A stretch of 64,000 bases of DNA from Dicyema japonicum (taxonomy: Eukaryota > Dicyemida > Rhombozoa > Dicyemidae): assembly GCA_011109175.1 (NCBI GenBank), contig RDEW01000030.1, positions 304,094 to 368,093 on the forward strand, read 5' to 3'. The position numbers were made by a program, and so were the translations under genes. Positions 2,849 to 58,023 of the stretch are shown here, in pieces. Each line of letters opens with the position of its first letter. Within the stretch, counting starts at the first letter, position 1. The notes under the pieces were generated by a model. That model saw nothing but the letters and a program-made list of their open reading frames with translations. It had not been told where the DNA came from and did no database searches.

Positions 2849-3724
2849 ATGAACTATCTGGGGGACAATAAGTTGAAAAACAACTGGAATACTTCGGATG
2901 ACGACGAGATTCATAATGTACAGGTCCTCGATATACTTTAGCCTAATGATTCGAGCTGGTCCGTAGATCTGCAGTCTTCAGTTCTCAATATTCAGCAGAA
3001 TCCACAATGTATTCCAATAAACTAACGTTAGATCACAACCGCTTCTATTCTGATAACAGAGTTCCGCATGATTACGAGTTTTATACTCATGCTTACGTTC
3101 CTAATGTTGGGGACAATTTTATATACACCAACTCACTCCCTCCTTTAGAATCACAACTAAAATTGTCTCAGAGTGGCTATGGAGAGTATCCAAGATATAA
3201 CTTCTTCAGAAATAACCGACAATATAACAGTATGAGTGACATATAGCTCAGATTCCGGGTTGATGCCTTCCGTGAACTTTAACCTTAACTATTGCCAAAA
3301 AGAGATCAACATTTACGTTAACAATTATCCCAAACCGAATGAGTACACGAGGACCACTGATAACTGCAGTTACATGCCGGGTGCTCTACCAAATTATGTC
3401 GGTCAAGAAAATAAATTTCAATTCTCCAACAGCAAAATCCACCTTTGGGAATTCCTCCGCGATCTCTTGGACGCGGACTGCACCGAATGTCTGTATTGGT
3501 TAGATAAATCAAAAGGTACAAGTTCACATTACAAAATAGGTATATTTAGGATTGAAAATTCCCACCTGCTTGCTGAATTGTGGGGGAAGAGGAAAAACAG
3601 ACCCTTCATGAACTATGACAAACTAAGCAGATCCATCAGGCAGTATTACAAAAAAGGGATCATGAGGAGAGCAAAGAACTATCGACGTCTTGTTTATCAA
3701 TTTTGTATTCCCGACAAAAAATAA
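2849..3724 (+). CDS. ETS-domain transcription factor (PDEF/ESE-like)
   Basis: A sequence-specific nuclear DNA-binding factor. I join four exons, 2849-2917, 2942-2958, 2982-3229 and 3252-3724, separated by GT-AG introns of 24, 23 and 22 nt, giving 268 residues. The last intron is well supported because it is needed to fuse two long frames; the first two, and the 17-nt second exon, are less certain, and ATG 3007 is an alternative start. The ETS winged helix fills residues about 173-262: IHLWEFLRDLL opens it, LAELWGKRKNRP and MNYDKLSRSIRQYYKKG form the helix-3 recognition region, and RRLVYQF closes it. SRSIRQYYKKGI instead of the usual SRALRYYY is typical of the SPDEF and ESE branches. The domain is C-terminal and the N-terminal half is Tyr/Asn-rich with no Pointed domain. 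The family call is firm; the subfamily is inference. Confidence 0.9.
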
Positions 3725-3894
3725 GCTTTTTAACAATTTTAATGAAAGATGCGTTCTTATTTTGTTTTATTGATTACTTCAGGATTTACTCTAAAAATAG
3801 TCTTAAAAAGATTATCGCATCCGCTTAAAATAATCAGCTTAATACAAAAACCTAGAATGTCATTATTTTCATATCTCACGGAAAATCACTTGTT

Positions 3895-4150
3895 TGGGAC
3901 TCCACATGTGTGAACACCTTCAGTTCGCACTCATCTGGAGGCCGACAAAGTGGAGGTGGGGAAAATACGAAAGTCAGCGATAACTACCATTTGACTCCTA
4001 TTGTGATGGAGACTTCTGGGGTCGTGGGAGAGAAGACGGAAGCATTTCTCTCCAGTATAAGACGAAGGCTTGCTTCAAAGACATGAAAGGCTCTGATTGA
4101 GGCAGAGGCTCGAAATGGTGGTGATCAGAAAATTCGCCTTCGCAATCCTG
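3895..4150 (+). mobile_element. Restriction-like-endonuclease LINE, C-terminal fragment
   Basis: One frame reads TPIVMETSGVVG then FLSSIRRRLASKT, the block that follows the nuclease core in this LINE group (compare VPFAVETSGILG at 61505-61880 and VPVAIETSG at 29430-29640). The last 50 bases recur in reverse at 52733-52800. Stop codons interrupt it; it is a dead fragment. Confidence 0.6.
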
Positions 4151-4494
4151 GCCTCATAACTAAAAGACTTTACTTAATTTTTCCAAACTGAGTCGTCTCC
4201 ACATGGCGGTTAAATGATAAATGAATTTCTCTTCCAAAACGTAGAACGAATAGAAAGACATGTTTACTCCTCTGCAAAGAACCTGGGAACTAATTTGAAA
4301 ACACGTAGTCCTGAAGAAGGACACCCAGATTGAGTTCCCATGTTGACATTGGTGAAGGAAATTACGGAAAAGTTTGGATCGTTGATGGATCATTCTAGAA
4401 GAATTCGGAAATTAAAGGCTAGCTTAATCGGTTGGCTGTGACGCCTTCTTTGATGATGATCTTGGAATGAAATAAAATTTTTAAAGACAAAAGC

Positions 4495-4650
4495 AAAGCA
4501 AAACTATCTAACCCACGTGATCTCAACACACTCCATCAGTGATCTAATCTTTGCTGAGGTTTCTTCCTCAAACCCACACAGGCACGTATTGGGCGATGAT
4601 CATAGTTACACAAACGTACCTTCAGTTCTTAGGAATAGAAGCTTCCAGAA
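4495..4650 (-). mobile_element. LINE 3'-end fragment, repeat family H
   Basis: Matches 24830-24960 (same strand) and 55115-55260 (opposite strand) through CACGTATTGGGC and GATGATCATAGTT. In the 55115 copy the coding orientation reads FYARYVL then RRRNS. It looks like the 3' end of a LINE reverse transcriptase, but the clade cannot be told. Confidence 0.45.
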
Positions 4651-4854
4651 GAGTTGATGAAAAGTATTTCTTCCCAAAAGTTTATCGGTCCGTAACTCTG
4701 ATCGCCCTTTTCAGGCAATCTTCGATCTTCAATGCATTTGTCTTGAAGATATATCATGATTGTAGGAACGAAAAAAATTCATTAAAAATTTAATAATTAA
4801 AGAAAATATAAATGTTAGAATGTGATTATTTTATTCCCCTAACTTTGTTAATGC

Positions 4855-5045
4855 GGCGCTTTCCTTTATGACCGCTATCGACTCCACTGGAGGGGTTTCC
4901 ACAACTGCATGTAATGGACGTCTTACCCTTTATGCTGATTCCGGATGGACTCTCTGTAGAAGTGGAAACTGGATACACTTAATTAGTTGTTTACTTTAAC
5001 TTTTTTCTCTGTGTATCCGGGGTTAATAAATAATAATAATGACCG
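4855..5045 (+). mobile_element. SINE-B family, 3' two-thirds
   Basis: Matches the full copy at 50190-50525 in the opposite orientation: CCACTGGAGGGGTTT, ACATGTAATGGACGTC, GGATACACTTAATTAG and GTGTATCCGGGGTTAATAAA. It ends in an (AAT)n tail, as expected of a retroposed element. Confidence 0.7.
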
Positions 5046-5469
5046 CTATCGAGACAAACTAGAGTTTCACGGTCATCATGCCTTCTGAGCGAAAAAATAC
5101 GTCCGAGTTTCTTGAGGAAGACCGGGGACTTATTGATTACCGTCCGTATGTCTCGACAGATTGCACGGAAGATATATTGTCAAAAAGTCCCCTATAGTTT
5201 TTTTATTTAGTTCTCTCTGCTTTCTCTGTGTCGGAAAGTGCCTTTACCGCACTCCTGATGAAGTTAAGACTCACTGTGTGATCTATATTTGCAAACAAAT
5301 CGAGTGGAAACAACGATAGGTAGGAAACGAGGGTGCAAACAATAAATATCTTTGTAATCGATAAAATAAAAAACATCACATTGATAAAGGTCAGAATCAC
5401 ATCCAACAGTCAGTGAAACAAGTGGAGGTTGAGAAATTGCATAAGTACGACTTGTTTGCAAATGAATTA

Positions 5470-5560
5470 TTATTACCCCAGGATCACTGGGTCAAAGAGA
5501 AAGAAATAAAAGTTCTCAACTAACTAAGTGATCCCAGATCGACAGCGGAGATAACGAGTC
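5470..5560 (-). mobile_element. LINE 3'-tail fragment
   Basis: In reverse orientation this gives GGGATCACTTAGTTAGTTG followed, some 50 bases on, by GGGGTAATAATAATT. The same arrangement ends the LINE copies at 37430 and 60900, so this is a short 5'-truncated copy of that family. Confidence 0.5.
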
Positions 5561-5844
5561 CGGCGGGATCGAGAGACCTGTACTGTTCTTCCCATCGGAC
5601 ATGGCAAATGAAGTAAACGTAATTCTAAAATGGGAATGGTATTCAAATTCTAAGGGAATTACCGCTTAATGTGGAAGGCTTTATACGAGTATATATTCGA
5701 AAAACCTTGAAGTGTATGTGAATAGAATACAATACAAGCTAGAATACCCCCATCTCAAATTAAATGTGAAGAAGAAATTTCCAGAGAAGTGGACACTCAA
5801 CTCCATAATTCAAATGAAGAGCCAAAGTCGAGAAGGGTCTAAGA

Positions 5845-6010
5845 ATTCACTCTCTGCTCTTTGCCTTCTATTTTTACAATCGCTATTGGATCCACATAAC
5901 TCAGCGGATTCCCAATGTCTTGCCGACATCCAAAAAAGAATCCGTCTTTGCATACTTCAATGGCGAGGTTCTGATAATACAGTAGAGGGGTTGGAAAAAA
6001 TTTAGGGTCT
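5845..6010 (+). repeat. Dispersed repeat family E, diverged copy
   Basis: Shares CTATTGGATCCAC, the ACTCAGCGGATTCCC region and AATGTCTTGCCGAC with 22365-22480 and 40860-41060, where the best copies read GGATCCACTTTAC and GGAGACCCCCGATG. No termini are defined. Confidence 0.4.
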
Positions 6011-7345: not shown

Positions 7346-7349
7346 GTAG

Positions 7350-10570: not shown

Positions 10571-11285
10571 AGTTTTGGTAGGATGACGACGGTAGTTGGT
10601 GAGGGTGACTACTCTACCTAACAGTCCCCTCTACGAAGCCACCACCAAATACTAAAAAAACCACCCAAGATATAAAATAACTCCATGTCCTTTCTGGAGA
10701 GCAATCCAGGATTCTCGTCCACATCGGTTAGGATCTTTCCCATGTTGGTCTGGGGTCACTTAGATATAGGAACTTTCTTTCGTATTAACACGATGATCCT
10801 GGGGTAATAATCTTTAAATTTTATTAACGTAAGAATTGTAAAATGAAAGTCAGTAAGTCCACGAATCGGAGTTGATCATTTCAGTCAGGGAAGAATTGAG
10901 GGATCCCTTATTTCTGATAAGGACTCGTTCGGCAGTTTTTCTGTCGACCTCCATTTGACTAACCTTGTCTATGAAATAACTATAGTACAATGAAATTAAC
11001 GTCAGTTTCTCTGATCTTCACTAACTTCTCCTTCGGGACTGCAGTTTTAGCATTTTCAGGAATTTTTAATGCCTATAGGGATTAATCGGAAAACTACGGT
11101 CGGGGCATCAATTTCACCGTTATCAAGGAAAGTGCCTACATTTTCCATCTTTTTAACTCCGTCGTCATACTTTGATGATTTCTTATTCTTAATGCCCATG
11201 AGAGACACAACGAAATAAATCAGAAAATTTTAAACTTTATAATTTATTTAAATTAAATAAAAATACAATATATTGATTTTGATGC
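10571..11285. other. No recognisable feature
   Basis: AT-rich, no motif and no repeat partner found in the window. Confidence 0.4.
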
Positions 11286-13021: not shown

Positions 13022-13527
13022 ATGTCTGGTGTTTCAAACGAAGAAGACGAAAAGACTGTAAATAATCTGATTAATAGACATTTAGTTGTTATTGTTAGAA
13101 CAAGAGATAGAAGACCTTAAAAGATTGTTATCCCAGAAAAAATCTGAGGCGTTGGTTTTACGTGAACGCCTTAACTTGTCTGCCTTCGGTTCTCTAAAGA
13201 ATGATATTCAGGATCAAATCGAGGCCATCAAGGATTCGTCAATGTACATAATTTACTGTAATTTTTAGATATGTCAAAACTAACCAAAAATTGGCCGATA
13301 TTCAGACGACAATTAGCAACTCTGAGGCAGTGAAGAACATTCAGAACAGCTCCATGTTTGAATTTTACTAACTGTAGCGTTACTGGAGCGTTTGACTACT
13401 TGGGGAGTCTCGGGAGGACTGTAGGGACAATGACGTATTATAGTTTTGTTATTTCAGGTCTTCTGTGATCGACAACACACTAGAAGCGGTTGGGTTGGCA
13501 CCCAAGGACGAATCAGTTGACATTTAA
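13022..13527 (+). CDS. TPD52-like coiled-coil protein
   Basis: Five exons, 13022-13057, 13086-13243, 13269-13355, 13378-13434 and 13458-13527, joined across GT-AG introns of 28, 25, 22 and 23 nt, give a 135-residue protein with no internal stop. Residues about 12-45 form a leucine-rich coiled coil (LLLLEQEIEDLKRLLSQKK), followed by RERLNLSAFGSLKNDI. This resembles the AEIKRKLGINSLQELKQNI block of tumour protein D52 family members, as does the following Y.KT segment (YVKTNQKLADIQ). The C-terminal half is weaker (GAFDYLGSLGRTVGTM). TPD52 proteins are cytosolic adaptors linked to vesicle and lipid-droplet traffic. The gene model is firm; the family call is moderate, and another short coiled-coil family is possible. 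Confidence 0.75.
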
Positions 13528-15782: not shown

Positions 15783-16714
15783 TTAAGACTGATAATAATC
15801 CTGGTGACGGTCACCTATTGGCTTGAGGACAGAACTCCCCTCCCAGTCAACAATCCACCCAGGTTGTAGCCCATAGAAAATCTGTGCATTTGTCTTCTTC
15901 ACTTGAAACTCCGATTTACTGGGCAGGAATAGCCAAACTGCTGAGAGAGCTCATATCTATGATATTAGAGTTTAGTTAACCGTTTTTTATCAACATCATT
16001 CTCCTCCGCCAAATAACCGCGGTTTTCGGGGGAAATGTAATACTTGATGACGTCGTGAGATGGCAGTTTGCACCGTGGAATGGGGGTGCCTTGACGGAAA
16101 AATTTTTCGGGGTCCGTAAGAGCGTATAAGGAGACAGCGTCATAATAGCGAGTTGTAATAACTCCCCCAACTTTCTCAATCGCAGCAATAGTCGGGAGGG
16201 ACGCATATTGCACTTCGATATTGACTTTGCTGGTGAACAAATCATCTCCCTAGATTGAAAACAAAGACCAACCTCTTCTGTGAGGTGGATTCCATACTGG
16301 CACTGTTGGGGATCAATTTGGATATTTAACTTGGCGCATAGGTAAGCCAAATCAAGAGGCTCGGAGGGATCAATGAAGCCAACGTCAATCGCACGTTGTA
16401 ATTTTAGTAGAGAAAATGGAATATACTGCTTTCGGGATCTGTAATTTAATAGCAATCAGTTACTCCCATCCTTCATTGTAGGGTTGAGTTGGAGTTGTGT
16501 AAATCAATGAATTCTGTCGACCTTCATATCCATACGGTGGGAGTAGGTTCCCATGGGAGGCGCTTTTCGACGCGTATCCCCGATTAGCACCAGCACGGAC
16601 TCCTCTGCGGAGTTTTTCCTTGTTAGTGTAATTTCATCACTACTATACTCGCTTTCTTCTAAGTGCAACAGCAGCTGGGACGTCTCGAAGGTTCCCAATT
16701 GTAATCCTAGGCAT
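15783..16714 (-). CDS. MRPL15: Mitochondrial large-subunit ribosomal protein uL15m
   Basis: Six reverse-strand exons, 16714-16649, 16618-16464, 16438-16273, 16249-15981, 15956-15920 and 15893-15783, with introns of 30, 25, 23, 24 and 26 nt, encode 267 residues (the human protein is about 296). The order of conserved blocks matches MRPL15: PRITIGNLRDVP at the N-terminus, then YGYEGRQNSL and QYIPFSLLKLQ, IDPSEPLDL, FTSKVNIEVQYAS, IAAIEKVGGVITT, GTPIPRCKLP, ENRGYLAEE, ELSQQFGY and, in the last exon, QIFYGLQPGWIV and LKP. It is a nucleus-encoded component of the mitochondrial 39S subunit. The start ATG at 16714 follows an in-frame stop. The N-terminus is short, so the mitochondrial targeting signal is not obvious. 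The two longest frames seen without splicing cover only the middle; the C-terminal 50 residues appear only when the 24- and 26-nt introns are removed. Confidence 0.93.
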
Positions 16715-25357: not shown

Positions 25358-26953
25358 ATGTTGGGTACGTATTTTGGGGGAAACTCTCAGTACAATCCTT
25401 ACAGTATCTTACATTATCCACTCCCTTTAAAAGAACGCTATTTTCGTCGTCCAATCGAGGACCTTTCTACATTTGGGAGGCCTCAAAAGGTTGGGAAATT
25501 GGTGATTCCAGGTGAACACGTGCTTCCAAGGACTTGACCGCCCTTTTTTTAATATTGGAAACCCAGATGGACAGGATGACTACCAAATTAAAAGAAATGA
25601 AGTATTAAAATATAATAAAGAGGGCAGATTTTAAATAGTGGAACCTTTAATTACGTAATCAGCGATTATTTGGGAAGAGGGACTTTCGGACAGGTTGCAC
25701 TCGCATGGGAACCTCAAGCTCAGAAATACGTGGCCTTGAAAATCCTCAAAAGGAACGATATATATTCTCAACAAGGATTAATTGAGGTAAATTTTGAAAC
25801 CATTAATTAACAAATTATCATCAATTATCATAAATTTAAAATATTAATTTATCATAAATTGTTTCATTTAAATTATCATAATTTTTAATCTATAATGTAG
25901 ATCTCGCTGCTCAAACAGATCGACCAAAGAATCATGGACCACGTGGTCTCTTTGTTAGACAATTTCTATCACTATGGACATATTGTATGGTATTTGAACT
26001 CCTGGAACAAGATCTGTTCGACTTTATTCAGGATAAGACAACGAATCCGTTCTATTTTCTGGGAATTCGAGCGATTTCATTCCAAATTCTAAAAGTGCTC
26101 GTAAAACTGAAGGAAATTGGAATCATTCACACAGACCTGAAGCCAGAGAACATAATGATCGTCAACCAGCGGAAATGGCCATATTATATCAAAATTATTG
26201 ATTTTGGTCGGCTCTTAGAAGTTCAAGGACTAAGGTCCCCAGTTATATTCAGTCGAGATTTTACAGGTATTCTATTATGGTGATTGTAGAGCTCCAGAGA
26301 TCATTCTTGGATCGGGTTTTGATTACAAGATCGACATGTGGTCCCTTGGCTGCATTATGGGTGAAATGGTGACTGGTTGGGCCATCTTTCCTGGTTCCTG
26401 TCAATACGAACAAATTAAATACATCCAGCGAGCCTGTGGACCATTTCCAGACGATTTAATTTCGACTGGAAGCAATTCCACCAATTTTTTCAAGAAAAAA
26501 AATTCGTGGAAGATAATAGTTGGTTTTATGGCTCATTAAAGGATAATGTTGAGTACTCCAAGATGACTGGCACAAAGACAAGGTCTCTTTCAAGATACTC
26601 AATCAAGGATTTCTCGGTGCTATCTGAGAAGGTAATTTTAGTGAAGCATAAAGCTGTTGAGAGATTCCAAATATTTCGAAAATACCTCGATTCTGCAAAT
26701 TTATAAGCTGGATGTCGAATATTTCATTTCGGCATTGAGGTCCATCCTTAATGTGGATCCAAGTAAGCGTCCATCTCCCGAGGAAGCTATAAATTTTCCG
26801 TTCTGGAAATTCTTCCACCACATTCCCATGAACTCCAGATGGTTGTCTCAGCTTTTTTACTTTAGGTTTCATTCTTCAGTCCAGACAATGTATATTTCTC
26901 GGGCTTGGACTTCAGGAATAGAATATTCTGTATTCACTGTGTTATATGATTAG
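25358..26953 (+). CDS. HIPK: Homeodomain-interacting protein kinase (three apparent 1-nt deletions)
   Basis: A CMGC-group Ser/Thr kinase. Six exons: 25358-25511, 25567-25601, 25628-25786, 25901-26266, 26290-26631, 26654-26953; introns 55, 26, 114, 23 and 22 nt. Kinase motifs in order: LGRGTFGQV glycine loop, VALKILK with the catalytic Lys, FELLEQDLFDF hinge, HTDLKPENIMI catalytic loop, IIDFG, YIQSRFYRAPEIILG activation segment, IDMWSLGCIMGEM, and LNVDPSKRPSPEEAINFPF at the C-lobe end. DYQIKRNE before the loop, the 12-residue DFG-to-YIQS gap and the ISTGSNSTNFF segment point to HIPK rather than DYRK. Three places each lack one base (near 25985, between 26205 and 26245, and in the A8 run at about 26492); restoring the frame at each gives about 452 residues. 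These may be sequencing errors at short homopolymers or real decay. A TATA-like TACTATATAAA lies 37 bases before the ATG. The long nuclear-partner-binding tail of vertebrate HIPKs is absent. Confidence 0.85.
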
Positions 26954-31439: not shown

Positions 31440-31890
31440 TTATTCATTCAAAAAAGGGTAAAGATCATTGACCACGTTGCACACAATTCTGGCAGGACAA
31501 ATTGTCTGTAAATAGAGAGAGGGAATCCAAAACCTTTTGAGATGATTCTTAATGCTGTCACCCCATTTCTGAATATTGGCGAAAGTCCCTGGTCACATAT
31601 GACTCCCAAGATGCTTAGCGTACTATCGACTGGATATCGTACTATTACGGAGGATCTTGGTTTGATGTTGTGGTCCCTTTTAGACGAATTGAACAATGTT
31701 GCAAACGACTTGGAGAAATCCCAGTCGTAGTTGAGCAACCACGGGGTCAGAGTGTCATTCAATTTGTGTATGACCCCAGTGGCTGCTTGAAGGACTCTAG
31801 TGATTATACTATCATCTGCATAGGCGAGTATGATAAATTTTTTAGATTTTAGCGTATCGCGCATAAATAGAGTAGAAATCCTTGATGTAC
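31440..31890 (-). mobile_element. LINE reverse transcriptase fragment with YADD
   Basis: A 138-residue reverse-strand frame contains ILAYADDSIITRVLQAATG, LLNYDWDFSKSFATLF and LGVICDQGLSPIFRN, the motif C region and following thumb of a jockey/R1-like RT. Both ends are cut off. Confidence 0.65.
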
Positions 31891-32044
31891 TCCATTGGGG
31901 AGACGAGTCTTTGATTTCATTTAGTCACATTTCACTTGGCCTCATCTTACCTCAGGAGTTAATACGTTTAACATTCAAGAATATCCATGTCCAAAATTTG
32001 CTTTGAAATTTTTGAAATAATTCCACTTTTTGCAAAATTAACCA

Positions 32045-32140
32045 AATAGCATAGTGATAAGCGAATTCACTAGTTAGACTAATTGGGGGGTTCGATTTTC
32101 ACGCCGCTACCTACCTTATCGAAGGATTTTATACCTCTTG
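32045..32140 (+). mobile_element. SINE-C copy
   Basis: A-box-like TAGCATAGTGATAAGCG and B box GGGTTCGATTTTC, closing with CCGCTACCTACCTT as in the 27145 copy. Confidence 0.6.
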
Positions 32141-32366
32141 TGCATTCCTTGAATTATAAGAGTGGTCACGTCATCTACTTTCTCAGGAAAAGCCTACGGG
32201 ATTCGAACCAAGACATTGGGGCATATGATTTTTTCATAAATAAAATCTTCAGCAGTGCTCGCTGCGGAACATGGGCGCAACGATGACTTGAGCAGATGCG
32301 TACTAGAGATAAGAAGCTCCAGGCCTATGAAGGTAAATGCCATTAACTTTATTTCTATTTTAAATA

Positions 32367-33240
32367 CCCACTTTATTTAACAAACAATAAAAAAGTTAAT
32401 ATATTTAATAATCAACAACCTTCCTCGCCTGCCTGTTCGCCAGCCTCCTCAGGCAGGTTCGATTCTGGTTGCTGAAACAACTCCGAGAGCGCCTTGTCCA
32501 ATTGAACCCTCTGCCCATATGGCATCTCAGGGCTCTGCCTCCTATACTCCAGTGTCAGGCTCTCTAGGGTCCGCTTTAACACAGTGGACTGTAGATAGGC
32601 CTGGAGCTTCCTATCTACCTCTAACTGCTTCAGATAACCCTTGTGGTACTTTGTTGCAATTCCTTTTCACGTCATTACTATAGGATAACGAGGACTTGCA
32701 ACCAAGAATCTGCCCCATCTAGTTTGCAAGAAAGTCATACTTCCTTTTTTTCTTCACCTCCACAGTCTGCAAACGGTCTTGAGACGTGATGCCAACCTCT
32801 ATAATAAGGACTTGGCCAAACTCCTTATCGTGTACCACAATGTCCGGTTTATTGTGTTTGATTAGCACCGAGGTACGGATAACACTGTCTACCTTAATTT
32901 GGACCCTGGTGTTCTCTACTACAGATTGCACCTTATGAGTCCGCAACTTTCTGGTGTAGCAATACCATACTTATTGCATAGTAGAAGATGAAGACTCCTT
33001 ACCCCATGTGGAAAGCATTTCCGCGTCCTGCTGAGAACATACACTATGACCATTTTCATGTAAGCGACGGTAAAACAATCTGCGATTAAACTCAAACAGA
33101 TTATTTTCTCTCCTTCTCTTACACCGACTTTCATGAGTTTCCTCTTATACACCATTATTGCCCCCTCTAACTCCACCTTTACCCTCCTCAACTCTTTGAG
33201 GTCCATTTGGGAACACGGAGTTTACTAGTTAGCCCTTTAC
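32367..33240 (-). mobile_element. Second restriction-like-endonuclease LINE family, 3' end
   Basis: Reverse-strand frames read CNKYGIATPE, THKVQSVVENTRVQIKV, then HNKPDIVVHDKEFGQVLII and EVGITSQDRLQTVEVKKK ending in RKYDFLAN. KPDI..D...LIIEVGI...K..KY is the PD-(D/E)XK restriction-like nuclease signature of R2-type LINEs. A 3' untranslated region follows down to CTTTATTTAACAAACAATAA at 32367 and is shared almost exactly with 47007-47231. Frameshifts interrupt the coding part; related but unreadable sequence continues to about 33640. Confidence 0.75.
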
Positions 33241-33877
33241 TATAGGCGGTGCTTTTCCTCTAACCCCTCTCGCCACACTACTTATGTGCCCCTCCAGTGC
33301 TTCCAGCTCAGTCTATCTCAAAGCAATCTTGGCACAGATCTGCTCCCTCCATTTACTGGGTGGTCTGAGCTTGTCTGTCATTTCATCCTAGGTGATCTGT
33401 GCTGCATACAACACTAGGGAGATGTCATCAAATGATCCTACTGACTTAGCTGCCACCGCATAAACCACAGCTTTATTGATACAGGTTAACACTACTCTGT
33501 TAACCTTACAATGAAGTATCTGGCCGGTAAATCTACGGTCCTAAAGTAGGACATATGCCGCTGCAGCAAGATTACGCGCGAAGACCTCATAAACATGCTT
33601 GAGCTGCAACGTATCACAGCTCTGGTGCTCATGCTCTCTTTGACTGTTGTGGTCATCTGGTCCCCGCCCCTTTAGACCAGTACCCTATTTTCCTACAGCC
33701 ATTTTCTTGAGTTCACTCACAGATATGGCAGTACTGAATCTGACACTGCAGAGCTCCGCCAAATATGGCCAACCATTCCAGGGCATTCGAGATAGCCTGC
33801 TACGTACTTGCAGGATTACCTGCCTCGCCATTCTTTTGGGTCATCTGCCACAACGCTCATAAATTCAGTAATACGGA

Positions 33878-33891
33878 TGAAAGTCATAAAT
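33878..33891 (+). repeat. Target-site duplication, left copy
   Basis: TGAAAGTCATAAAT, repeated exactly at 34495-34508 around the LINE insertion 33892-34494. Confidence 0.85.
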
Positions 33892-34494
33892 TCATTGGAC
33901 AAGTTCAGGACTGGTGCGGGGGATGAGATTGTCTACGGAAAAATCCAGCTCTCTACGAGTGAGTCGTTTAAGGAGGCATCAGAAGCAGCCTTACTCATTA
34001 GAGATTCCTAAAGTAAACTCAATGCGCTACCTCGGGATAGCAATCGATGGAAATGGTCCCTTCATGGAGGACATAAGACGGAGAAGGAAGAAGGCGCTTC
34101 AAGCACTCTTATGTACGAGAAAGTTGCTTGTAAGCCTGGAAACCTTCTTGTTCATCTTCATGAGGATCATCCTACCGGAACTGCTATATGGATGCGAAGC
34201 ATGGTTTTTCTCTTGCCAAAGAAAAAGAATAATGTTTCTCATGGAAAAAACCAGAAAGTCGGCAATAAAGTTGGCTTTAGGAAAAAGGCTCTGGGATGCT
34301 CTCAGCACTGAAGAAGACATGATTCTAACTCCTGTTAAAAACATCATAGAGAAAAGAATCAATGGGATCCGACGATAGAAGATAACTAAATGGAGTGTGG
34401 ATACATCGGAAGTGTCCAGGCCGCATAGGCGGACACGTTTAAATATCCTAAAAAAATAACTCCTTACTTACTTTGGAATAAATTTGATTTGATT
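33892..34494 (+). mobile_element. 5'-truncated LINE with a 14-bp target duplication
   Basis: The frame reads MRYLGIAIDGN, DIRRRRKKALQALLCTRKLL and RIILPELLYGCEAWFF, the same RT thumb region as 45840-46020 of the longer LINE at 42700-46290. It ends in TTTGATTTGATTTG repeats. Identical 14-base flanks (33878-33891 and 34495-34508) define both ends. The insertion lies just before the start codon of the small gene at 34507. Confidence 0.85.
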
Positions 34495-34506
34495 TGAAAG
34501 TCATAA

Positions 34507-34686
34507 ATGGTTTGCTGGGTTTAAATCATCATTTAGGGGAACACTCCAGAGGCCCAACTAAAAAATCTCTGTGATGTAGATGAAAGACGTAAGGTTAATG
34601 CACGATGGTACTACCTAAAAGACCCAGGTAGTCCAATGGATAGATTCAAAAGGTGGTGCCCTTTTACTGAAGGTTCTAAAAAGTAA
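34507..34686 (+). CDS. Small MGN-starting protein, paralogue A
   Basis: A one-codon first exon (ATG at 34507-34509), a 27-nt GT-AG intron (34510-34536) and a second exon 34537-34686 encode 50 residues beginning MGNTPEAQL and containing SPMDRFKRW. The paralogue at 36256-36459 has the same architecture, the same intron length and a matching GPMDRFKKA block, which argues that both are real. M-G-N at the N-terminus fits the rule for N-myristoylation, so membrane attachment is possible (inference). A LINE sits immediately upstream and separates the gene from the CAGTAATACG element that precedes both copies. A GTAAG just before the stop could be a further donor, so the C-terminus may be longer. I do not recognise the family. 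Confidence 0.55.
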
Positions 34687-35039
34687 GATTAATCAACTCT
34701 TTGTATACCAAAGGGGTTAATCGTTCGCCATATGGAGGAAATGATCACTATGAGAGACTACACTGAAGACTTTTAATTCTACAATGACAAAAGGGAGAGG
34801 TTCATCATTCCAAAAAATTACAGAAATCCGAAAAAATTATAAGACAATTTTATTAACTTTGCTGCTAATTTGTATTATTGATGCTTAACAACGTGTTTTG
34901 AATCATATTGAGGGACTCTAATAGTAATATCTGGTAGTTGCTTCAGGCTCTCTTCCGCAGTTTTTCGAGCCACTCGATCGGTCTCATAAAAATTGCTGCG
35001 CATGGGCCAAGTCCGTCTTGGAAATTTTGTTTTTGAGAG

Positions 35040-35590
35040 AAATAATTAAGGAATGTTCGAAATCTTAAGACACATCGTCAATTCTTCGCATTATGTCGCT
35101 ATGTTATGTTATCCAATTAAGTCGTGTCCGACCCTTGGAGATCTCATGAACGAGTTTCCTCCACTCTCCCGATCCGTTGCAATTTGGAGTAGCCTTGATA
35201 TAGGCATTCCCGTGACGTCTTCCACCATGGATAGCCACCGAGTCCTTGGTCGGCCAGGTCTTCTCTTCCTAGTAATATTGCTCAGCATAATGTTTCTTTC
35301 CAGTGAATCAGAGCGGACAACATGCCCAAAGAACGCCAATCTGTGTTTTACGATTCTTCCTTCTAGCGAAATGTCAGTCTCTACCCGTTTGAGTACATCG
35401 ATGTTTGTTATTTTGGAAGTCCAAGGGATTCTTAGTAACCTCCTCCAGCACCACAGCTCAAAAGCTTCAATTTTTCGTCTATCCGTCTTTTTCAATATCC
35501 ATGATTCTGCGCCGTATAGAAAAACAAAGAACACGATTGCATTAACTAGTCTGCATTTGGTCCTTAAGGAAATATGTCGCTACTAAATGG
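35040..35590 (-). mobile_element. BovB-like RTE LINE, C-terminal fragment
   Basis: A 141-residue reverse-strand frame reads YGAESWILKKTDRRKIEAFE, LWCWRRLLRIPWTSKI, SLEGRIVKHRLAFFGHVVR, GRPRTRWLSMVEDVTGM and SPRVGHDLIG. This series is the hallmark of BovB-type RTE elements best known from vertebrates and arthropods, and differs from the other RTE-like fragments in this window. It is open throughout and therefore comparatively young. Confidence 0.8.
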
Positions 35591-38883: not shown

Positions 38884-40496
38884 CTAAAAGCCAGTCTTAT
38901 GCCTGACTAACTCAATGCAAGTACAAGCATCAATGAAGCTGTCATGTCCATTAATATCTTCGATAATATATCAAACAACCGTTCTGTATCACTTTATTCA
39001 AAAAATTAAGCGCCAAAGTCCTAAGAGCACACCTATAGGGGAGTCCCATTCTGTGAGGAAATATCACAGAGGTGTCCACCACGGTTTCATGTAAAAGCTA
39101 CAATCACAACAATAACGACTTTAAGGGAGACAAGGTCATTATTCAAGCTGTGTCCAATCAAAATTGATTTACTACACAGAAGACTCACAATCACGTTCTG
39201 AACATCTTTTAAGGTTGTCCTTGTTTCCTTCAAGTTCTCCTCCGTGATCCCACTGAATCTGACACTAACAACCCACGAGACCTTGTATTGTAGTCTATTA
39301 TCTTTCCTAAGGGAAGCACGTGCGAATCATACACCAACTGCAGGTCGTGGTCGACCACACTGATCCTCGCTAACTCGATTCCTTCCGTCGTATAGATCAT
39401 TTCGCAGTCAATCGCGTAAATTCCACACTCACAGTCCTTCCCACCACAATCTGGGGCTCTCACATAACCACTTGTTTCTGCACCTTCATATACGTGGTAC
39501 TAAATTTGGAAGAGATCCTACCCTTGCCGAAGAACATGGAGGAGCTGAGCTGTCAATTGAATTACAGCACGAATAAGTTGGTTCACTGTTCTTTTTGAGT
39601 CTCAAAAGCTTGGAGGGATGATGGTAGCACATATCCTCCAGTGGTTCCCTCAAATAATCACTCTTTGGATTGAATATAGCCTTGCAGCGAATACACGTGG
39701 CCAAACCATCGGATCTTCTGACTGAAATTAAATGTGGAGTACCTTTAGGGCCATATTGAGAAGGGAATAATTTAACAGAGGCCGGATTATCATAATCAAA
39801 GGTCGGATAACCAAAACTTAATCTATTTTCCTCTGACAAGATATACTGAGTTAACCCTGCTCTAATCAGTTTCCCTATTAAATATTAATAAAAGGGGACA
39901 GTCAATGGAAGTCACATTCTTTACTTCCTCGTCATTCGTGAGCTTATTATTGCCGGCCTTAATGTCCGATCTAATCTTCCTAACAAACATGTTCGACAGG
40001 TTCCTGTAGGAGTCCAGACACTTGGATTTCTTGGAAATGTTTTTCTCAGTCGCTTTGACAATGGAGACGGCTGTTACCCGATCTTTCTCGGGATAAAGCT
40101 TAAAGGCTTCTTTCAATAAGAAGGCGACCATGTCCTGTCGGACTTTCCGTGATATCACACAGTCATGTTCGTTGTGAATCCAAATTAGTCCACTGACATC
40201 AACTGACTAGAATATTTGATATCCATTACTTTGTGTACAGCGTTTTTAGGTTCTTCCTTATTATTGGCTGATGCCTCTCTGTTGGGCTCCTCAACGCGGA
40301 TCTTTGGTTTGATGAAGGTAATGCTTTCGACAAAGTCTTCCATCTCCTGTTTTGACATAGAGGTGGACAGTTGATTCGTTTTAGAATCCTTGGGGGAGCT
40401 GATCAGCATTATTTCATCGTCTGAATCATATCCAAATATATCTGTTGATTTTAACAATCCGCAATCTCCACTACGATCAGAAGTTAATTCAGCCAT
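38884..40496 (-). CDS. REXO1: REXO1-type DEDDh 3'-5' RNA exonuclease
   Basis: Seven reverse-strand exons, 40496-40230, 40206-39900, 39874-39522, 39499-39282, 39252-39120, 39097-38980 and 38957-38884, with introns of 23, 25, 22, 29, 22 and 22 nt, give exactly 490 codons (489 residues). The catalytic set is complete: AIDCEM (Asp340, Glu342), then IELARISVVD and KIIDYNTSG, GHSLNND (Asp421), VVDTSVIFPHRMGLPY, and GHDSFID (His470, Asp475). Upstream cysteines CIRCKAIF, MCYHH and CC match the Cys-rich region before the nuclease in REXO1. The N-terminal 90 residues are acidic and Ser-rich and much shorter than in vertebrates. Family members trim 3' ends of structured RNAs in the nucleus. Start at ATG 40496 is the first in frame. 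This is the cleanest demonstration of micro-introns in the window. Confidence 0.95.
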
Positions 40497-42690: not shown

Positions 42691-44879
42691 GTGTAAGGGG
42701 CCATTAAGCGGAAAAGAAATATATAATGTCTCATTTTAGTTGAACCCACTAGCCTTACTGCAAGCACATCTCGTGAAAAAAAAATCGATACACTACTAAA
42801 TGAAATGTTTTTCAACTAACTCAACCTTACCCCTGGGAACGGAATTACTAATACCTATACAAAAACCCAATAACCCAAAAGGACCGGTTGAAAACTTACA
42901 ACCATTATCAAATTCTCTACGGAAAGTCTCAGCTAACATTGTATTAGAACGAATAAAAGGACCCGCCTATTAATACCTACCCGAAGAAAATACACGCTGA
43001 AATATCGGAGATTATGTCGCGGTTAAACTATTTGTGCTCGATTGCACATGTGGATTTAATGGAAACGATGACCTTGGCTTTGAAGAAGCAAGGTCACCTA
43101 AATGTTTGAAGCAAGGACTAAAAATAGTGCTAGTGAATGCCCGATCCCTAGGGAAAAGGCATAATGAACTAGCACTACTTGCGAGGACCTCCAAGATCGA
43201 CATCTTGGTGGTCAATGAGACGAAATTAAAGAAAGCGAAGAGTAATATAATGACTGGATACAATTCTGTGGACGTTTTATGGAAGGCTGGAGCAGTTGCT
43301 GGTACGGGAACGTCTATTTTCTACCGGGACTGCCTCCGAATTCGTAATCCAAAAGTCGTTTGTGATGTATTGTGTGAATTTGTAAGCATGGAAGTTTGTT
43401 GCGACGGAGTATGGATTAGTGTTGGAGGTCTATACTCCAAGAATCTTGAGACTTGTTCTACAGATATCACTGAGTTCTACAACAAGAATCCCTATACTAT
43501 CTTAATTGGGGATCTTAATTCGAAGAACACTAGTTATGGTTGTAGCAAGACAAATCAGGATGGACGACGTTTAGAATTATTGTCTGATTCATGTGGCTTT
43601 GTGATCCTTACGTCGGATGACCCAAATCATTTTTCTTATCATGGTGGCGACAAACTCGGCGTATTCCTAGTATCGCCAGCTCTATCTGTGTATGTGGGAA
43701 AGCCAAAAACTCTATGGGATATCGGGAGTGACCATATTCCACAAGAATTAGTTATCACTTTGAGACCAGATGTTATGGAAGATGTCTTCTTGAGGTTCAA
43801 CATATCTAACTTGGATTGGGCCCACTATAGGGTCTTCATATCCAATAATTTGTGTGTTCTACCGAGAGAGTTTTCAACCATAGAAGGTATCAATGCTGCA
43901 AGTAGAGAATAACAAATCTACTGCAGTCATATCTTCATCTGTATTCACGAAGGGTTTTCTCAAAAAAATCATTATTTTGTGTCGCCAATTATTATGAGGC
44001 TTATTCGTGAGAGGAATCGCCTAAGGACAAAGCAAAGGCGTTGTGTCGACAAAATAGACGGGAAATTCATATCAGACAGAATTAGGATGATGAAGGAAGC
44101 AATCATGAATATATGGAAGGAAGAGACTGACCGTATATGGAAGGCTGAGGCTGCGAAAATTGATATAAAGAATCCCTCTTTTTGGAAATGCTATCAGAAG
44201 ATAATGTGTCCGAAGTCGGGAGCAGAAAAAATTATATTGAATAAACCAGACGGGGGAATATGCATAACGGAGGAAACACCTTCGATATTCAGGGATCAGC
44301 TCCAAAAAATTCAGGGTGTGGATCCGTGGAGTTTGATCCCTGATGACAAAAAGAAGGTGTCTGCCGATATATTTAAACACTCCGACGAGGAACTACCTAT
44401 TGCTGATAGCACTGTCAGCATCTTTGAAGTGATGACAGCTATCAGGGAATGCAAGGTCAATGCTCCAGGATATGACCACATATCAATGAAACTTATCAAA
44501 GAGGGTCCGGATATTTTGTTTGACTATCTGCGATGTCTTTATGATGGGTGTTTACGACTTGGCCACCTGCCTTTAATATGGAAGAAAGCTGTTGTGAGGA
44601 TGATTCCAAAACCAGGGAAGCCAAAGAGAGATCCGGCAAGCTACAGACCAATTAGCTTAATATGTTCTTTCGCGAAAGTGATTGAACGTATCATTTTCAA
44701 AAGGCTAAGCAGACATATAGAAGAGAATGACTTTCTGATTCCGGAGCAGTGGGGTTTTCGTTTCTGAAGAGGCTGTGCAGACTGTTTCCTTCTACTGAAT
44801 TCTGAAATCATGAAAGCAAAGGATTCCAAGAACAAATAAACTTATTATGTCTTGATATCTCGAAAGCATTTGACAGTGT

Positions 44880-53536: not shown

Positions 53537-53991
53537 TTATTTCTTATTCGCATTAGAATTGGGCCCAATCCTTCTCCCAGTAGTGATTTTAACGGATTTC
53601 AGCCTCTTGTTATATTGCTCCCTTCTATGGGATCTTCCTGTCTTTCCCCTTTTCTTTTCGGACTTTGGAATCTAACCGTGTTATTAACATGGATAAACTT
53701 TTGGAGTACGGTTCCTGACTTTACCCACGTGCATCAGTGAACCGTGTTGACGACCACCAACGCACTTCACCATTAAGTTCATAGATTTGGAAGGAAGATC
53801 TTTCACAGAGTCAGAATCCAAATAAACGTGACTGCTTGAAAACAGAACTTGATCAGAGGATTCAATACCATACTTAACGAACAGGGATTTCTTAAATGAA
53901 GTTACTAGTATACCTTAATATCTGCTACAGTATCATCATTGCCAGCGTTGATAACAAATGATTTCTCAATTCCTTTTACAATCAACTGCAT
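53537..53991 (-). CDS. FAU: FUBI-eS30 fusion precursor (ubiquitin-like + ribosomal protein S30)
   Basis: Three reverse-strand exons, 53991-53914, 53890-53699 and 53671-53537, with 23- and 27-nt GT-AG introns, encode 134 residues, almost exactly the length of human FAU (133). Residues 1-72 are the ubiquitin-like moiety (MQLIVKGIEKSFVINAG, TVADIKKS) ending in the processing site GG; residues 73-134 are ribosomal protein eS30 (RQHGSLMHVGKVRNRTPK, KKRGKTGRSHRREQYNKRL, GRRIGPNSNANKK). The precursor is cleaved after GG and eS30 joins the 40S subunit. No single exon exceeds 64 codons, so the gene is easily missed. Its sequence is intact and it is surely functional. Confidence 0.95.
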
Positions 53992-53999
53992 TTCTATAT

Positions 54000-55110
54000 T
54001 TAGTCACCAAAACAACCACGACAAAACTACTAACACGTTTTATTAATTTTTTAATAATTTAATAATAATATAAAATTTATTATTTTTTATAGAATATAAT
54101 TAGCAAATAAGAAGATTGGTAGGCCACCCTTCTGAAAGTCGTAGAAGGGTAGGGAATGTCGAATGGTACTTTTTCATGCAGAACTCGCATCGAACGCCAC
54201 CACAACAAGCTAGGAATGAGACCACGCTAAAAAACTATATCGGAGGAACATTCAAAAAGAATTCGCGAGATGTTAGACGTTGGGATCACCTTTCTTTCTT
54301 GGTGGTTTTGTGGTTTTAAAATAAATACGGACAAAAGAGAGCCTCCTCATACGATGATGTGACAGGGTAAGAGGAGAGAATGGTTCGTTTTCATGTCTAT
54401 TATCACTTGGCTCTGCCACATTGGTTGAACCTCTTGACGTGCAGGATCACCTAATTAGCTTTTTCAGTGGATAGAGAGCAAGGGTCTTGTCGAGAAGTTC
54501 CAAGGGGAGGTCACGTTTGACTCTCTCACGACCTTTAGACATCAAGTAAGCAACGTGTTGTCGTCTTGCTAAAGAAAACTCAACTTCATAAAGGAACTCT
54601 CGGATAATACAGGAGCTCTTTCTCTACGAAAGCAAGTTCCCTATATACCCAGTACATTGACTCGACCATCAGCTATGCAATAAATCTCGCCAATTCCATT
54701 AAGAAATCTTCATCTTTAGTAATTTGAGGTCTTAGACGTTTTCCTGAAAGTCCCTATATCCTTCGAGACCTTAATCTCACGTGAACCTTTTACCAGTAAC
54801 ACAAGTCTACATGGTGTGGATGGGATCCTGTGAAGAAGATTAAGTGGTTACTTATGAATGTTGAGTTGTGACCTAGTTCGAAGTCTTTATGACGGATGTA
54901 ATCCTTTGCCCTCGTTCTTTCTTGAATTGAGCAACTCGCAATATACTAACGTTCCTGATCCGAATCCCACCTGGGCGAAAGTTCGGGAAAGCTTATATAA
55001 GGGAGACCCACATAGAGGGTACACAGCTGACATAATTGTTGTCATGATAATTTGGATATTAATTTTGTTACTTTGGCGCTCATTTTCACAGCTAAACGTC
55101 TAAAGATATA
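54000..55110. other. Unassigned
   Basis: Short frames and possible decayed LINE (GGATCACCTAATTAG at 54440) but no motif. No gene is called. Confidence 0.35.
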
Positions 55111-55114
55111 GTTC

Positions 55115-55260
55115 TTGCCAGTGGAACTATGAGAATCCGGTTCTACGCCCGATACGTGCTTGTTTTGGCTCGAAGGAGGAACAGCAGGCCAAGATGAGGT
55201 CTCTACTAAAGTGTACTGGGATCACGTGAGTAGTTAGTCTGTTTTATCACGGTCATTGGA
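55115..55260 (+). mobile_element. LINE 3'-end fragment, repeat family H
   Basis: Reads RFYARYVLVLARRRNSRPR in the sense direction and ends GGGATCACGTGAGTAGTTAG, like other LINE tails here. Homologous to 29100-29210, 4495-4650 and 24830-24960. Confidence 0.5.
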
Positions 55261-55299
55261 GTTTTCACGTCATTTCGAATCAAATTAATAAATTATATT

Positions 55300-55530
55300 C
55301 CAGAGATCACGTAAAATTTTAAGTCATGTGATCCCTCTGTCTCATGAAACGCCCAATGGTGGTGATGCAAAAAGATCTCTATTCTCTACTCTACTAAATG
55401 GGTTACAGCTGCGAATGTGAATAGACTTGTTGCTTGGAAAGGATGTGTCTTCTTCGACCGTGGGAACTAGATATACCATAATTAACCGTTAATTAACTTT
55501 TAACCTCTTTCCACTAATCCGAGTTATTAA
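55300..55530 (+). mobile_element. SINE-B, old copy
   Basis: TAAGTCATGTGATCCCTCTG, ACGCCCAATGG, GTGGGAACTAGATATACC and TCCGAGTTATTAAA follow the order of the SINE-B consensus, with about 30 percent divergence. Confidence 0.5.
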
Positions 55531-56186
55531 ATCTATGTGAAAATTCGAGGTACTATAAATTCTCTATAGCGATTAGGTGATAAATCGAGCGTCTTCACAA
55601 TAACGCAATTTTAGGTCAGAATTACGATCAATTGCCTAGAGAAGCACAAGTTTTACTTCCGTTTCTGGTGCTTTGTGTAGATACGGTATTAAATGGCAGA
55701 CAAAAACAACAATTAACGGATTTTACATTTCCGTGAATAAATATTTGTAAAACGTTTCTTTATATATAGAACACTCTCTCAAAGCTTAGATTACGAGACA
55801 ACTTGAGCGATAAAGAAAAATCTTTATCTTTTCTCAGGAGGCTGGGACGCCTGGTTACATTCAGAAGTCATGACTGGTTACTCTGGTTACTCCAGGAAAG
55901 CAGAGGCTCCTCCGGTTAATCTCGATTGATAAATAATATGAACTTAAAGATCACCTGTCTGAAGCTACACGTGCAGAATGATAGTTGATATGACTATATG
56001 TAAGTTGCTAACAAAAATCATTTTTTGTACATTTCATCTATTTGAACTGAAATAATTAAACTAACAGATAAATCACCCATAATTGGATGAGATCGATTCA
56101 AAGATAATGATAATGTATAACAAGGCACATTATTAGCTGCGTGCAATAATTCATATAATTACGGTCAATAGTCCATATTTGAAACT

Positions 56187-58023
56187 ATGTGGTGCTTTAT
56201 TTTTTATTTTTTGCTGAATTTTGTTTCGGGTAGTTTTATCCACCAATCTAAAGGCACGTCTTTATTTCTCTCCAATTCTAAAATTTATGCCAAAAGCGGT
56301 GATTCCAAAAACGTGATATGTACAGTCGGTCCGACAGTGTCTTCTCTTTTTATTATGTGGTACCAAAATGGGGTTGAAGTTAAACAATCGTTGATAATAT
56401 TTTTACGTCTAGAAATGTAATATATTCACTCTAAGATCGACCTCATCCTCCACTTTATACTTCAATAATATAATGCCTTCAATGGCTGGAGTATACAAGT
56501 GCGCATATGGGAACTCGACCTACAACCTGACTCAGGTACCATTTCACCTGTATGTGGATGGTGAGTTGTACATATATTGTGTAGAGGCAATCATCAGTTT
56601 TCCGAACTGTTCAATGACTGACTACATGACTGTCAATATATCCCACACTTACACGTGCATTCCAAGGATAACAAATCAACTCCAGTCGGCCATATTTTGG
56701 GTTAAAGAAATGAATGGTCTGACATATCAAATCTGTGAGTGACGATGTGATATATTTTAGATAATTGTTCCAAAATCCGAATCACGGCCAATTCGATTAC
56801 GTTTAATAACCCCCAACTGAATAATGAAGGAAAATATTCGATGACTGTCTTCAATCCTTCCGAGATTAAATCCTTCTCCATTTCAATATTTGTTAATAGT
56901 AATAAGGCTACTAATCCACTAGCTCCCCCGTTGGTTACTAAGTTTCTAAATGTGACTACAGCAGTCAATACAGTGGGCTGGATCAGCTGTTCAAGTTATG
57001 GGCGTCCCCAGCCGAATATTTCAATTACCTTAAATAATATGGTTATAGCAGAATTTACATAAAGACTTACATGGAACACAATTTATCAGTAAATGCCATA
57101 AATTACACCAAAACTGCATCTCTATCGGTTAATGTCTCCATTCCTGGAATACACCATGCCTTCTGCTACGCACAAAACATGATTGGAAACTCTTCATCTT
57201 CCGCTTTTCTGGAATTTGGATGTTCCGAGTACTTCTCACCTTTAGATAAACCGGGTCCCATTTCATTTCGAAACATATCATGGGGGAGCTTATCATCGAA
57301 TAAAATTGTCTTCAATACTGCAAACATGACGGACTATAAAATCAAAATATTTATTTACGTATTCTTGTGGTTATTTCAGCAAAATTCTACCAACGACACA
57401 GGCTATGAAATCAACCAAACCACGTTTTATATCACAAACGTAACAAAAAACACCAGCTATACCTTCAAAGCATATATCGAAAACAGGTATGGAATGTCCC
57501 GGGTATTCAACACAACGTTCGTCCCACTATTCGGTTACCATAGCACCAAATAATGTTAGGAATTCCGGATAAAGTCAGTTCTCTAACATTCATGGACAAT
57601 AGCATCGTATTATGGACTCCTCCGAACGAGAATGGATACAACATAACACACTACGTCATTCATTATAACATGGTAGTGCCCATTCTATAATTAGATTAAC
57701 GAAATTGTGTTAAACGGGGACACGAATACTTGCGATCTATCATCTTTGATGACCCCTGGAGTTGACCATAATTTTGCTATATCTGCTGTAAATAAAGTAG
57801 GGAGATCTAAAGTGAATTATTTTGTACTAAAAATCCCCAGTATTTGTAATTTTATTTACTAGCGACAACGACATCGACATCAATGCGCACAGTGCATCAC
57901 ACAACGAGTACTCAGATTCATACGACGGTGTTCACCATCAGAAAAAAGAAAAAACCTGTTGACGTGAAAATTTTGAGTGGAAAATTGGCTCTTATTAATT
58001 TAATATTTATTATAATTTTCTAA
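56187..58023 (+). CDS. Secreted Ig/FN3 protein, probable GPI-anchored adhesion molecule
   Basis: Eight exons, 56187-56416, 56436-56734, 56761-57041, 57065-57358, 57380-57533, 57560-57672, 57695-57839 and 57863-58023, with introns of 19, 26, 23, 21, 26, 22 and 23 nt, give 558 residues without a stop. A signal peptide (MWCFIFYFLLNFVSGSF) is followed by three Ig-like domains at about 32-110, 125-215 and 225-315 (VICTVG...MWYQNG...AGVYKCAYG; TYTCIP...IFWVKE...GKYSMTVF; GWISCSSYG...FCYAQN), two fibronectin III domains (FKAYIENRYGMS; IVLWTPPNENGYNITHYVIH and AISAVNKVGRS), a Thr/Ser-rich stalk (TTTTSTS) and a C-terminal hydrophobic tail LALINLIFIIIF after a small-residue SG, with no cytoplasmic residues. 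That is the layout of GPI-linked contactin-like proteins. N-glycosylation sequons are frequent. It is likely a cell-surface adhesion protein; the exact family is not resolved. The 19-nt first intron is the least certain junction. Confidence 0.85.

Follow-up and report, generated by a model that had tools for sequence, protein, structure and literature searches.

Dicyemids are tiny animals that live as parasites of octopuses and squids. A first-pass annotation of a 64,000-nucleotide stretch of the Dicyema japonicum genome (contig RDEW01000030.1, here called the window) rebuilt its genes by removing short GT-AG segments, 36 of 39 being 19-33 nt long, a count reproduced by arithmetic recount. The question raised by this locus is whether such segments are introns and, if so, how an intron of this size is laid out. 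They are best explained as U2-type spliceosomal micro-introns of ~23 nt, a reading to which we assign a probability of about 0.95.

Lengths and borders of introns called by homology

Introns were called by alignment to solved or database proteins with every length from 10 to 300 nt at equal cost, which gave 57 introns in ten genes, six of them chaperonin genes elsewhere in the genome and four of them in the window. Clean junctions restoring the conserved protein are present at 47 of the 57. Seven calls adjoining alignment gaps were dropped (HSP60 34, CCT gamma 11, CCT alpha 21, CCT zeta 23, CCT eta 24, MRPL15 30, and HIPK 14 nt), as were three outside a length filter of 18-33 nt (CCT eta 14 and 14, HIPK 37 nt). 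After this filter the 47 retained introns are 21-27 nt long with a median and mode of 23 nt and a mean of 23.2 nt, and those of the six chaperonin genes are 21-25 nt with a mode of 23 nt (23.1 ± 1.0, n = 37). Longer introns exist, with one of 78 nt in the actin gene L053 and one of 114 nt in HIPK judged plausible by eye. Lengths divisible by three occur in 10 of the 47 homology introns and 10 of 43 ab initio introns, numbers insufficient to claim selection, and an in-frame stop lies inside nine of the ten verified introns of this kind.

When the GT-AG rule is removed from the homology alignment, 45 of the 47 lengths come back, in order, and among all 256 dinucleotide pairs GT-AG earns the highest homology score (four genes, 15-40-nt introns allowed). 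Both results oppose the view that the segments are an artefact of reading, in which GT and AG are frequent and short frame-keeping segments can always be found. That view draws support from the raw spacing of GT and AG, which alone has no excess across the window; for the 47 introns it is contradicted by the lengths returned without GT-AG, and we regard it as very improbable.

In the window the ab initio finder predicts 50 introns and 17 genes, whereas the reversed window yields three of each (score >3), under a length prior with 85% on 18-33 nt and with retrotransposon-like frames among the 17 genes, a difference that again argues against an artefact. In its favor, a chaperonin-trained model with a flat 15-300-nt prior predicts 17 introns in the window (score >5), only 5 of which are 19-33 nt long, a weak run that counts against the micro-intron claim. 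In a flat-prior run 33 of 88 predicted introns are 36-80 nt, whether real or mis-predicted. Six introns seeded the splice model of the finder (ETS 24 and 22, FAU 23 and 27, REXO1 23 and one 22), so that the re-finding of ETS 24 and 22 and of FAU 23 is partly circular; REXO1 23 is returned also under a splice model rebuilt from the chaperonin loci. Unsupervised self-training of the finder drifted into spurious long introns and the seed model alone gave few genes, chiefly inside its own training window, and both were discarded as evidence. A first ab initio pass predicted 59 introns across nine chaperonin loci, with lengths of up to 181 nt. Homology reduced one CCT epsilon intron from 89 to 23 nt and added a missed 21-nt intron in HSP60, and because several ab initio introns were replaced in this manner the homology-guided introns alone are counted.

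The site shared by four actin paralogues carries introns of 27, 22, 25, and 78 nt; for two of the four, coding DNA identity is 88.4%. One paralogue also has a 24-nt intron that three others lack, an empty site that further opposes an artefact. Segments could also be kept in the mRNA, with ribosomes shifting frame or bypassing them, or the genes could be pseudogene copies, in keeping with the frame breaks found in HIPK, the actin genes L050 and L054, and the Pax6 gene L048, owing to which some junctions may fall in damaged genes or assembly errors. Such explanations are exceedingly improbable given the five to seven sites in each essential chaperonin gene, which are bordered by GT-AG and have nearly a single length, and given that all six spliced chaperonin genes align across nearly the full length of the supplied reference (partial for CCT epsilon, zeta, and eta).

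Introns of the window genes

Alignment of MRPL15 (uL15m, minus strand) to human uL15m (3j7y_M) places a 25-nt phase 2 intron at 16439-16463, where the junction is gap-free and the length is the same without the GT-AG rule, a 23-nt phase 0 intron at 16250-16272, and a 24-nt phase 2 intron at 15957-15980. A probable 30-nt intron at 16619-16648 adjoins an alignment gap, measures 42 nt in free alignment, and stands outside the 47. REXO1 (minus strand) has its best match in oyster (40%), and a profile of ten REXO1 homologues places 22-nt introns at 39500-39521 (with or without GT-AG), 39098-39119, and 38958-38979. The same profile puts a 23-nt intron at 39259-39281, restoring DYNTRFSGIT as in homologue P0001; the first-pass annotation had 29 nt here, a mis-picked junction of the type that an artefact would produce. 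Frame continuity places a further 23-nt intron at 40207-40229, beyond the region with homologues, and an uncertain 25-nt intron at 39875-39899, which has the odd donor GTCCCC and a 50-nt alternative that breaks the frame.

FAU (minus strand) contains a 27-nt intron at 53672-53698, with in-frame stops inside, that is returned by RPS30 alignment with and without GT-AG. A 23-nt intron at 53891-53913 in its ubiquitin-like part, a model seed placed by frame continuity, is spanned by a below-cut-off Pfam ubiquitin match (10-58). Alignment of HIPK (plus strand) to HIPK2 (7ncf_A) verifies two 23-nt introns at 26267-26289 and 26519-26541, the former of which may or may not be the 23-nt intron listed previously. 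The boundary of a third HIPK intron, at 26632-26653, is uncertain, being 22 nt ab initio and 37 nt (GT-AG) or 28 nt (free) by homology.

In the TPD52-like gene (plus strand) the 28-nt and 25-nt ab initio introns at 13058-13085 and 13244-13268 are the first two junctions and fall inside the part of the spliced protein that Pfam TPD52 matches, and frame continuity gives introns of 22 nt at 13356-13377 and 23 nt at 13435-13457. The ETS gene (plus strand) has, on frame continuity, introns of 24 nt at 2918-2941 and 22 nt at 3230-3251, both model seeds, and one of 23 nt at 3009-3031, for which a rival frame-keeping 23-nt candidate lies at 2959-2981; the ETS domain itself is within the last exon. A HYPK-like gene at 10850-11199 (Pfam UBA_HYPK, 41.4 bits), absent from the genes named earlier, has a 22-nt ab initio intron at 11073-11094 on the minus strand.

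Eight of the 39 lengths first listed are thus exact by homology at flat 10-300-nt cost (MRPL15 25, 23, and 24; FAU/RPS30 27; REXO1 22, 22, and 22; HIPK 23), and one, the REXO1 29, is corrected. Another 17 agree with ab initio frame continuity (ETS 24, 23, and 22; MGAT2 46; TPD52 28, 25, 22, and 23; FAU 23; REXO1 23; one MGN 27; FN3 26, 23, 21, 26, and 22; HIPK 22), the ETS and MGAT2 calls coming from a run other than the one with the 85% prior, in which the ETS gene is not listed and MGAT2 has no intron. The remaining 13 are not confirmed (MRPL15 30 and 26; SAM-like 33 and 23; HIPK 55, 26, and 114; membrane protein 26 and 29; the second MGN 27; REXO1 25; Ig 19 and the other 23), and these 17 and 13 count on the side of an artefact. 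The two SAM-like introns appear solely in the rejected self-training run, in a 90-amino acid piece with no Pfam match; HIPK 26 and 114 are plausible by eye, the membrane-protein introns were not located in the window, and the 19-nt Ig intron has no homology support. Identification of MGN as Mago nashi was rejected, as human MAGOH yields no convincing match. The statement that complete models are divisible by three holds for the four checked (TPD52, FAU, corrected REXO1, and HYPK-like), each with a single terminal stop, and keeping any single intron in them leads to an earlier stop.

Internal layout and splicing machinery

Among the 40 introns that are 21-25 nt long, 24 carry a TNAY motif at -7/-8 from the 3' end, compared with 8 of 159 same-length exonic GT..AG decoys (Fisher 5.5e-14); the other 16 true introns have none at this position. 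The position was first noticed on the 47 introns and then tested on the decoys and at six other loci, where 16 of 43 ab initio introns carry it and 5.6 are expected (0 of 2000 shuffles). Counted from the other side, an A 7-8 nt from the intron end lies ~15-16 nt after the first base. GTRAG donors are scarce, in 3 of the 47 verified and 6 of the 43 ab initio introns. The canonical donor GTRAGT is a typical but non-obligatory feature that is relaxed here, and its absence is no ground against the U2-type class. By eye, none of the 47 has both the RTATCCTT donor and the TCCTTAAC branch of U12-type introns, and the one that begins GTATCCTC is without the U12 branch motif. A search for U12-type introns in 361,942 bases gave nothing decisive.

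Removal from DNA rather than RNA would resemble the internal eliminated sequences of ciliates, the shortest of which are similar in size to these segments. A further point for it is the 24,065 circular contigs reported for Dicyema sp. (PMC6543705). It is nonetheless highly unlikely, as the borders are GT-AG instead of TA repeats, TNAY has a set position, and the introns of D. acuticephalum were identified by comparing cDNA with genomic DNA (PMC2222250).

Genes for the U1, U2, and U6 snRNAs of U2-type splicing are present in the genome. Matches over cut-off number 22 of 25 for U2 and 9 of 10 for U6, and U12 also exceeds its cut-off; none of 11 U1 matches passes that of Rfam, the best scoring 69.0 versus 69.5 bits. 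The U1 5' end is intact in both U1 sequences aligned (ACUUACCUG), U2 keeps GUAGUA, and the pairing regions are intact in the five snRNAs aligned. SLU7, PRP18, and ISY1 are matched over cut-off. U2AF-like pieces are found with 0 of 32 matches reaching the full-length cut-off, and since the U2AF model also matches in 2 of 14 control genomes they count as RRM-like evidence only.

The segments are most probably U2-type spliceosomal introns shrunk to ~23 nt in a dicyemid-like animal, with a general layout of GT, a T-rich and poorly conserved stretch, a branch-like TNAY with its A 7-8 nt from the end, and mostly YAG. The ordinary spliceosome would remove them from RNA with the TNAY A serving as putative branch point, and the machinery may read intron length itself, as in intron definition by length. 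Since the donors are highly degenerate despite the intact U1 end, much of the specificity would have to come from short and near-fixed distances. A molecular ruler, in which the 23-nt set point with a branch A lying 15-16 nt into the intron and 7-8 nt before its end replaces donor strength in a spliceosome otherwise standard for metazoans (SLU7, PRP18, and U12 kept) and unlike that of Stentor, where SLU7 and PRP18 were not found, is a tentative proposal that we hold to be possible rather than probable.

Relation to published short introns

Micro-introns in dicyemids are already in print. The introns of D. acuticephalum are likewise very short and uniform, with a mean of 26.2 ± 1.9 nt (n = 16; Aruga et al. 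2007, PMC2222250) compared with 23.1 ± 1.0 nt here (n = 37) in a different gene set, and the Pax6 introns have, by eye, the phases published for that species across the paired domain and homeodomain, phases common to many animals. The genomes of Dicyema sp. and D. japonicum (the latter 67.5 Mb, GC 36.7%, 4.1% gaps) also contain micro-introns and have 4.9-6.2 introns per gene, with a median of 27 nt in Dicyema sp. (PMC6543705) and a mean of 38.2 nt in D. japonicum gene models (PMC6543705, PMC6736024) compared with 23 nt here. The fit to dicyemid literature claimed in the first-pass annotation is borne out, published values being of the same length class, and the measured lengths are less spread out and a little smaller than those listed there. 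The portions of PMC2222250 consulted give no branch site, and those of PMC6543705 do not contain the term "branch point". These dicyemid passages likewise do not mention a 23-nt set point, TNAY at 7-8 nt, degenerate donors with an intact U1 end, or retained SLU7, PRP18, and U12, and the branch geometry may be in print elsewhere.

Stentor coeruleus, with introns of 15-16 nt (PMC9505925), is similar in having tiny GT-AG introns, a weak branch consensus, and a branch A at a set place close to the 3' end, at position 10 of 15. It differs in length from the 23 nt seen here and in SLU7 and PRP18, which are matched here and entered as N/A for Stentor in PMC9505925. The orthonectid Intoshia linei has short spliceosomal introns at similar density, with a median of 57 nt (quoted in PMC6543705) versus 23 nt here.

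Use of a larger minimum intron length in gene models or read mapping would lose or distort most such junctions. To our knowledge these introns are among the shortest in any animal. At 23 nt they approach the steric limit of the spliceosome, and the fixed branch geometry makes the handling of 23 nt by a megadalton machine testable.

Intron lengths from spliced alignment and ab initio prediction

A spliced aligner written for this work, which compares a profile or protein with DNA at a flat cost for all intron lengths of 10-300 nt (10-200 nt for REXO1), was run with references comprising Protein Data Bank chains, an RPS30 sequence and ten REXO1 homologues. Of the nine chaperonin loci that a Pfam search identified in the same genome, all but L035, L038 and L043 served as targets, six in total, together with four genes of the window (MRPL15, REXO1, FAU/RPS30 and HIPK). 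Under the GT-AG requirement 57 introns are placed, 53 in nine genes and 4 in REXO1, and keeping those of 18-33 nt with no alignment gap within 3 columns leaves 47, three of the ten dropped (14, 14 and 37 nt) being lost by the length filter alone. The 47 verified introns have a mean length of 23.17 nt (SD 1.13), with two of 21 nt, nine of 22 nt, 23 of 23 nt, seven of 24 nt, five of 25 nt and one of 27 nt. Removal of the splice-site rule brings back 45 of the 47 lengths in the same order, the comparison outside REXO1 being of lengths and not of places; the exceptions are a CCT epsilon intron of 44 instead of 23 nt and a 21-nt HSP60 intron that is apparently translated through. For introns of 15-40 nt in four chaperonin genes, GT-AG scores highest among the 256 donor/acceptor dinucleotide pairs (5696 versus 5358 for the next, mean 4610).

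The first-pass annotation rebuilt 39 GT-AG introns in eleven genes of the window and placed 36 of them at 19-33 nt, which is the correct count. Eight are reproduced exactly by homology and one is corrected, 17 are recovered solely by ab initio prediction (three being partly circular as seeds of the finder's splice model), and 13 are unconfirmed. GT..AG pairs spaced 18-33 nt in the window show no excess over shuffled sequence, so motif counting cannot reveal introns here. The finder predicts 17 genes with 50 introns in the window versus 3 genes with 3 introns in the reversed window, a contrast that supports the existence of introns and not their length, since the finder's prior favors 18-33 nt. 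When the prior is flat over 18-80 nt and the sequence scanned comprises the window plus 200 kb of contig C1 (~26 kb N), the length distribution peaks at 22-23 nt. Of the 88 introns scoring >12, 23 have these lengths and 33 are 36-80 nt long; in the reversed control the peak lengths account for 1 of 14. Blocks of N of 2.2-9.9 kb, which may be scaffold gaps or withheld sequence, lie in loci L009, L013, L016 and L017 of the 200-kb sample.

A HYPK-like gene with micro-introns at 10850-11199 (-), absent from the first-pass list, is predicted by the finder and matches Pfam UBA_HYPK; its second intron is ambiguous at 22 or 25 nt. The HIPK gene at 25358-26953 (+) appears, by eye, to have kinase-domain frame breaks that GT-AG introns of normal size do not explain, which would point to a remnant or an assembly error. 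Between the host genes lie many reverse-transcriptase-like open frames and remnants, judged as such by eye, at window positions that include 31448-35586, 43001-44767 and 58315-60090. The aldehyde dehydrogenase gene at 2347-4122 (-) of L019 has ab initio introns of 23, 25, 28 and 24 nt among others, and over the 90 N-terminal residues of the predicted protein it matches human mitochondrial ALDH (E 1.4e-26).

Intron anatomy and the splicing machinery

A branch-like TNAY motif with its A at -7 or -8 from the intron 3' end occurs in 26 of the 47 verified introns versus 6.1 in interior shuffles, and in 16 versus 5.6 of 43 ab initio introns (20-27 nt) from six loci outside the window, predicted with an acceptor model blind to -8 to -4; neither count is reached by any shuffle (0/2000). 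Real exon sequence is a better control, and here the motif is present in 24 of 40 introns of 21-25 nt (three gap-adjacent ones included) versus 8 of 159 GT..AG pairs of the same length inside chaperonin exons. The A lies 15-16 nt past the first base of the intron in 22 of 26 verified and 14 of 16 ab initio TNAY introns, largely because of the 23-nt length, so that in these data either interval, donor to branch or branch to acceptor, may be the one held fixed. Donors are degenerate, with G at +5 in 11 of 47 verified and 12 of 43 ab initio introns and GTRAG in 3 and 6, respectively.

Despite the degenerate donors, the pairing regions of the aligned snRNAs are intact (U1 ACUUACCUG, U2 GUAGUA and U6 ACAGAGA). 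One U12 snRNA exceeds the cut-off at L046 1501-1629 (-), corresponding to 163471-163599 of contig C68, which suggests that this animal has kept a minor spliceosome. Profile searches place SLU7, PRP18 and ISY1 over cut-off, and U2AF-like pieces on contig C114, each below the full-length cut-off, cover model positions 168-510. A gap of 19 nt separates the two PRP18 matches, which have one profile position in common, pointing to an intron of ~22 nt within a splicing-factor gene. In Stentor, introns are 15-16 nt with the branch A at position 10 of 15, and the entries for SLU7 and PRP18 read N/A (PMC9505925), whereas both are matched over cut-off in D. japonicum. Set against these Stentor figures, the branch-to-acceptor end is almost equal in length and the donor-to-branch part is longer in D. 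japonicum.

Removal by the ordinary spliceosome is most likely, with specificity that would derive from a near-fixed length together with GT, a TNAY branch and YAG. That the machinery itself reads intron length is a tentative part of this mechanism, to which we assign roughly one chance in three.

Dicyemid introns, Pax6 and the actin paralogues

Dicyemid micro-introns are already published; the reports give a mean of 26.2 nt in D. acuticephalum (PMC2222250), a median of 27 nt with ~2/3 below 30 in Dicyema sp. (PMC6543705), and a mean of 38.2 nt in D. japonicum gene models at a genomic GC content of 36.7% (PMC6736024). The GC content of the window is 35-41%. Pax6 at L048, read by eye, has a paired-domain intron of 24 nt in phase 0 and homeodomain introns of 23 and 25 nt in phases 1 and 0, matching the phases stated for D. 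acuticephalum Pax6 introns (a) 0, (c) 1 and (d) 0 (PMC2222250), at sites common to many animals and hence not species-diagnostic.

Four actin loci (L050, L051, L053 and L054, with L052 left out) were compared using a human actin sequence as reference. An intron follows residue 113 in the same phase in all four, with lengths of 27 nt in L050, 22 nt in L051, 25 nt in L054 and 78 nt in L053; the coding DNA of L050 and L051 is 88.4% identical. A 27-nt intron follows residue 41 in three of the four loci, and a 24-nt GT..TAG intron follows residue 191 in L054, where L050, L051 and L053 are uninterrupted. An insert that stays at one site but varies in length, that alters the reading frame in two of the four copies, and that is missing in some cases is what would be expected of an intron. 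Elsewhere in the gene L050 and L054 have frame breaks, at which the aligner placed false pieces (32 and 13 nt). These two loci and the Pax6 paired domain at L048 each carry a frame break or internal stop, and may thus be pseudogenes or heterozygous alleles or may contain assembly errors. The genome has at least ten actin-like loci that differ in exon layout, including an equal-scoring inverted pair on contig C94, and the actin loci of this genome are suited to tracing intron gain and loss.
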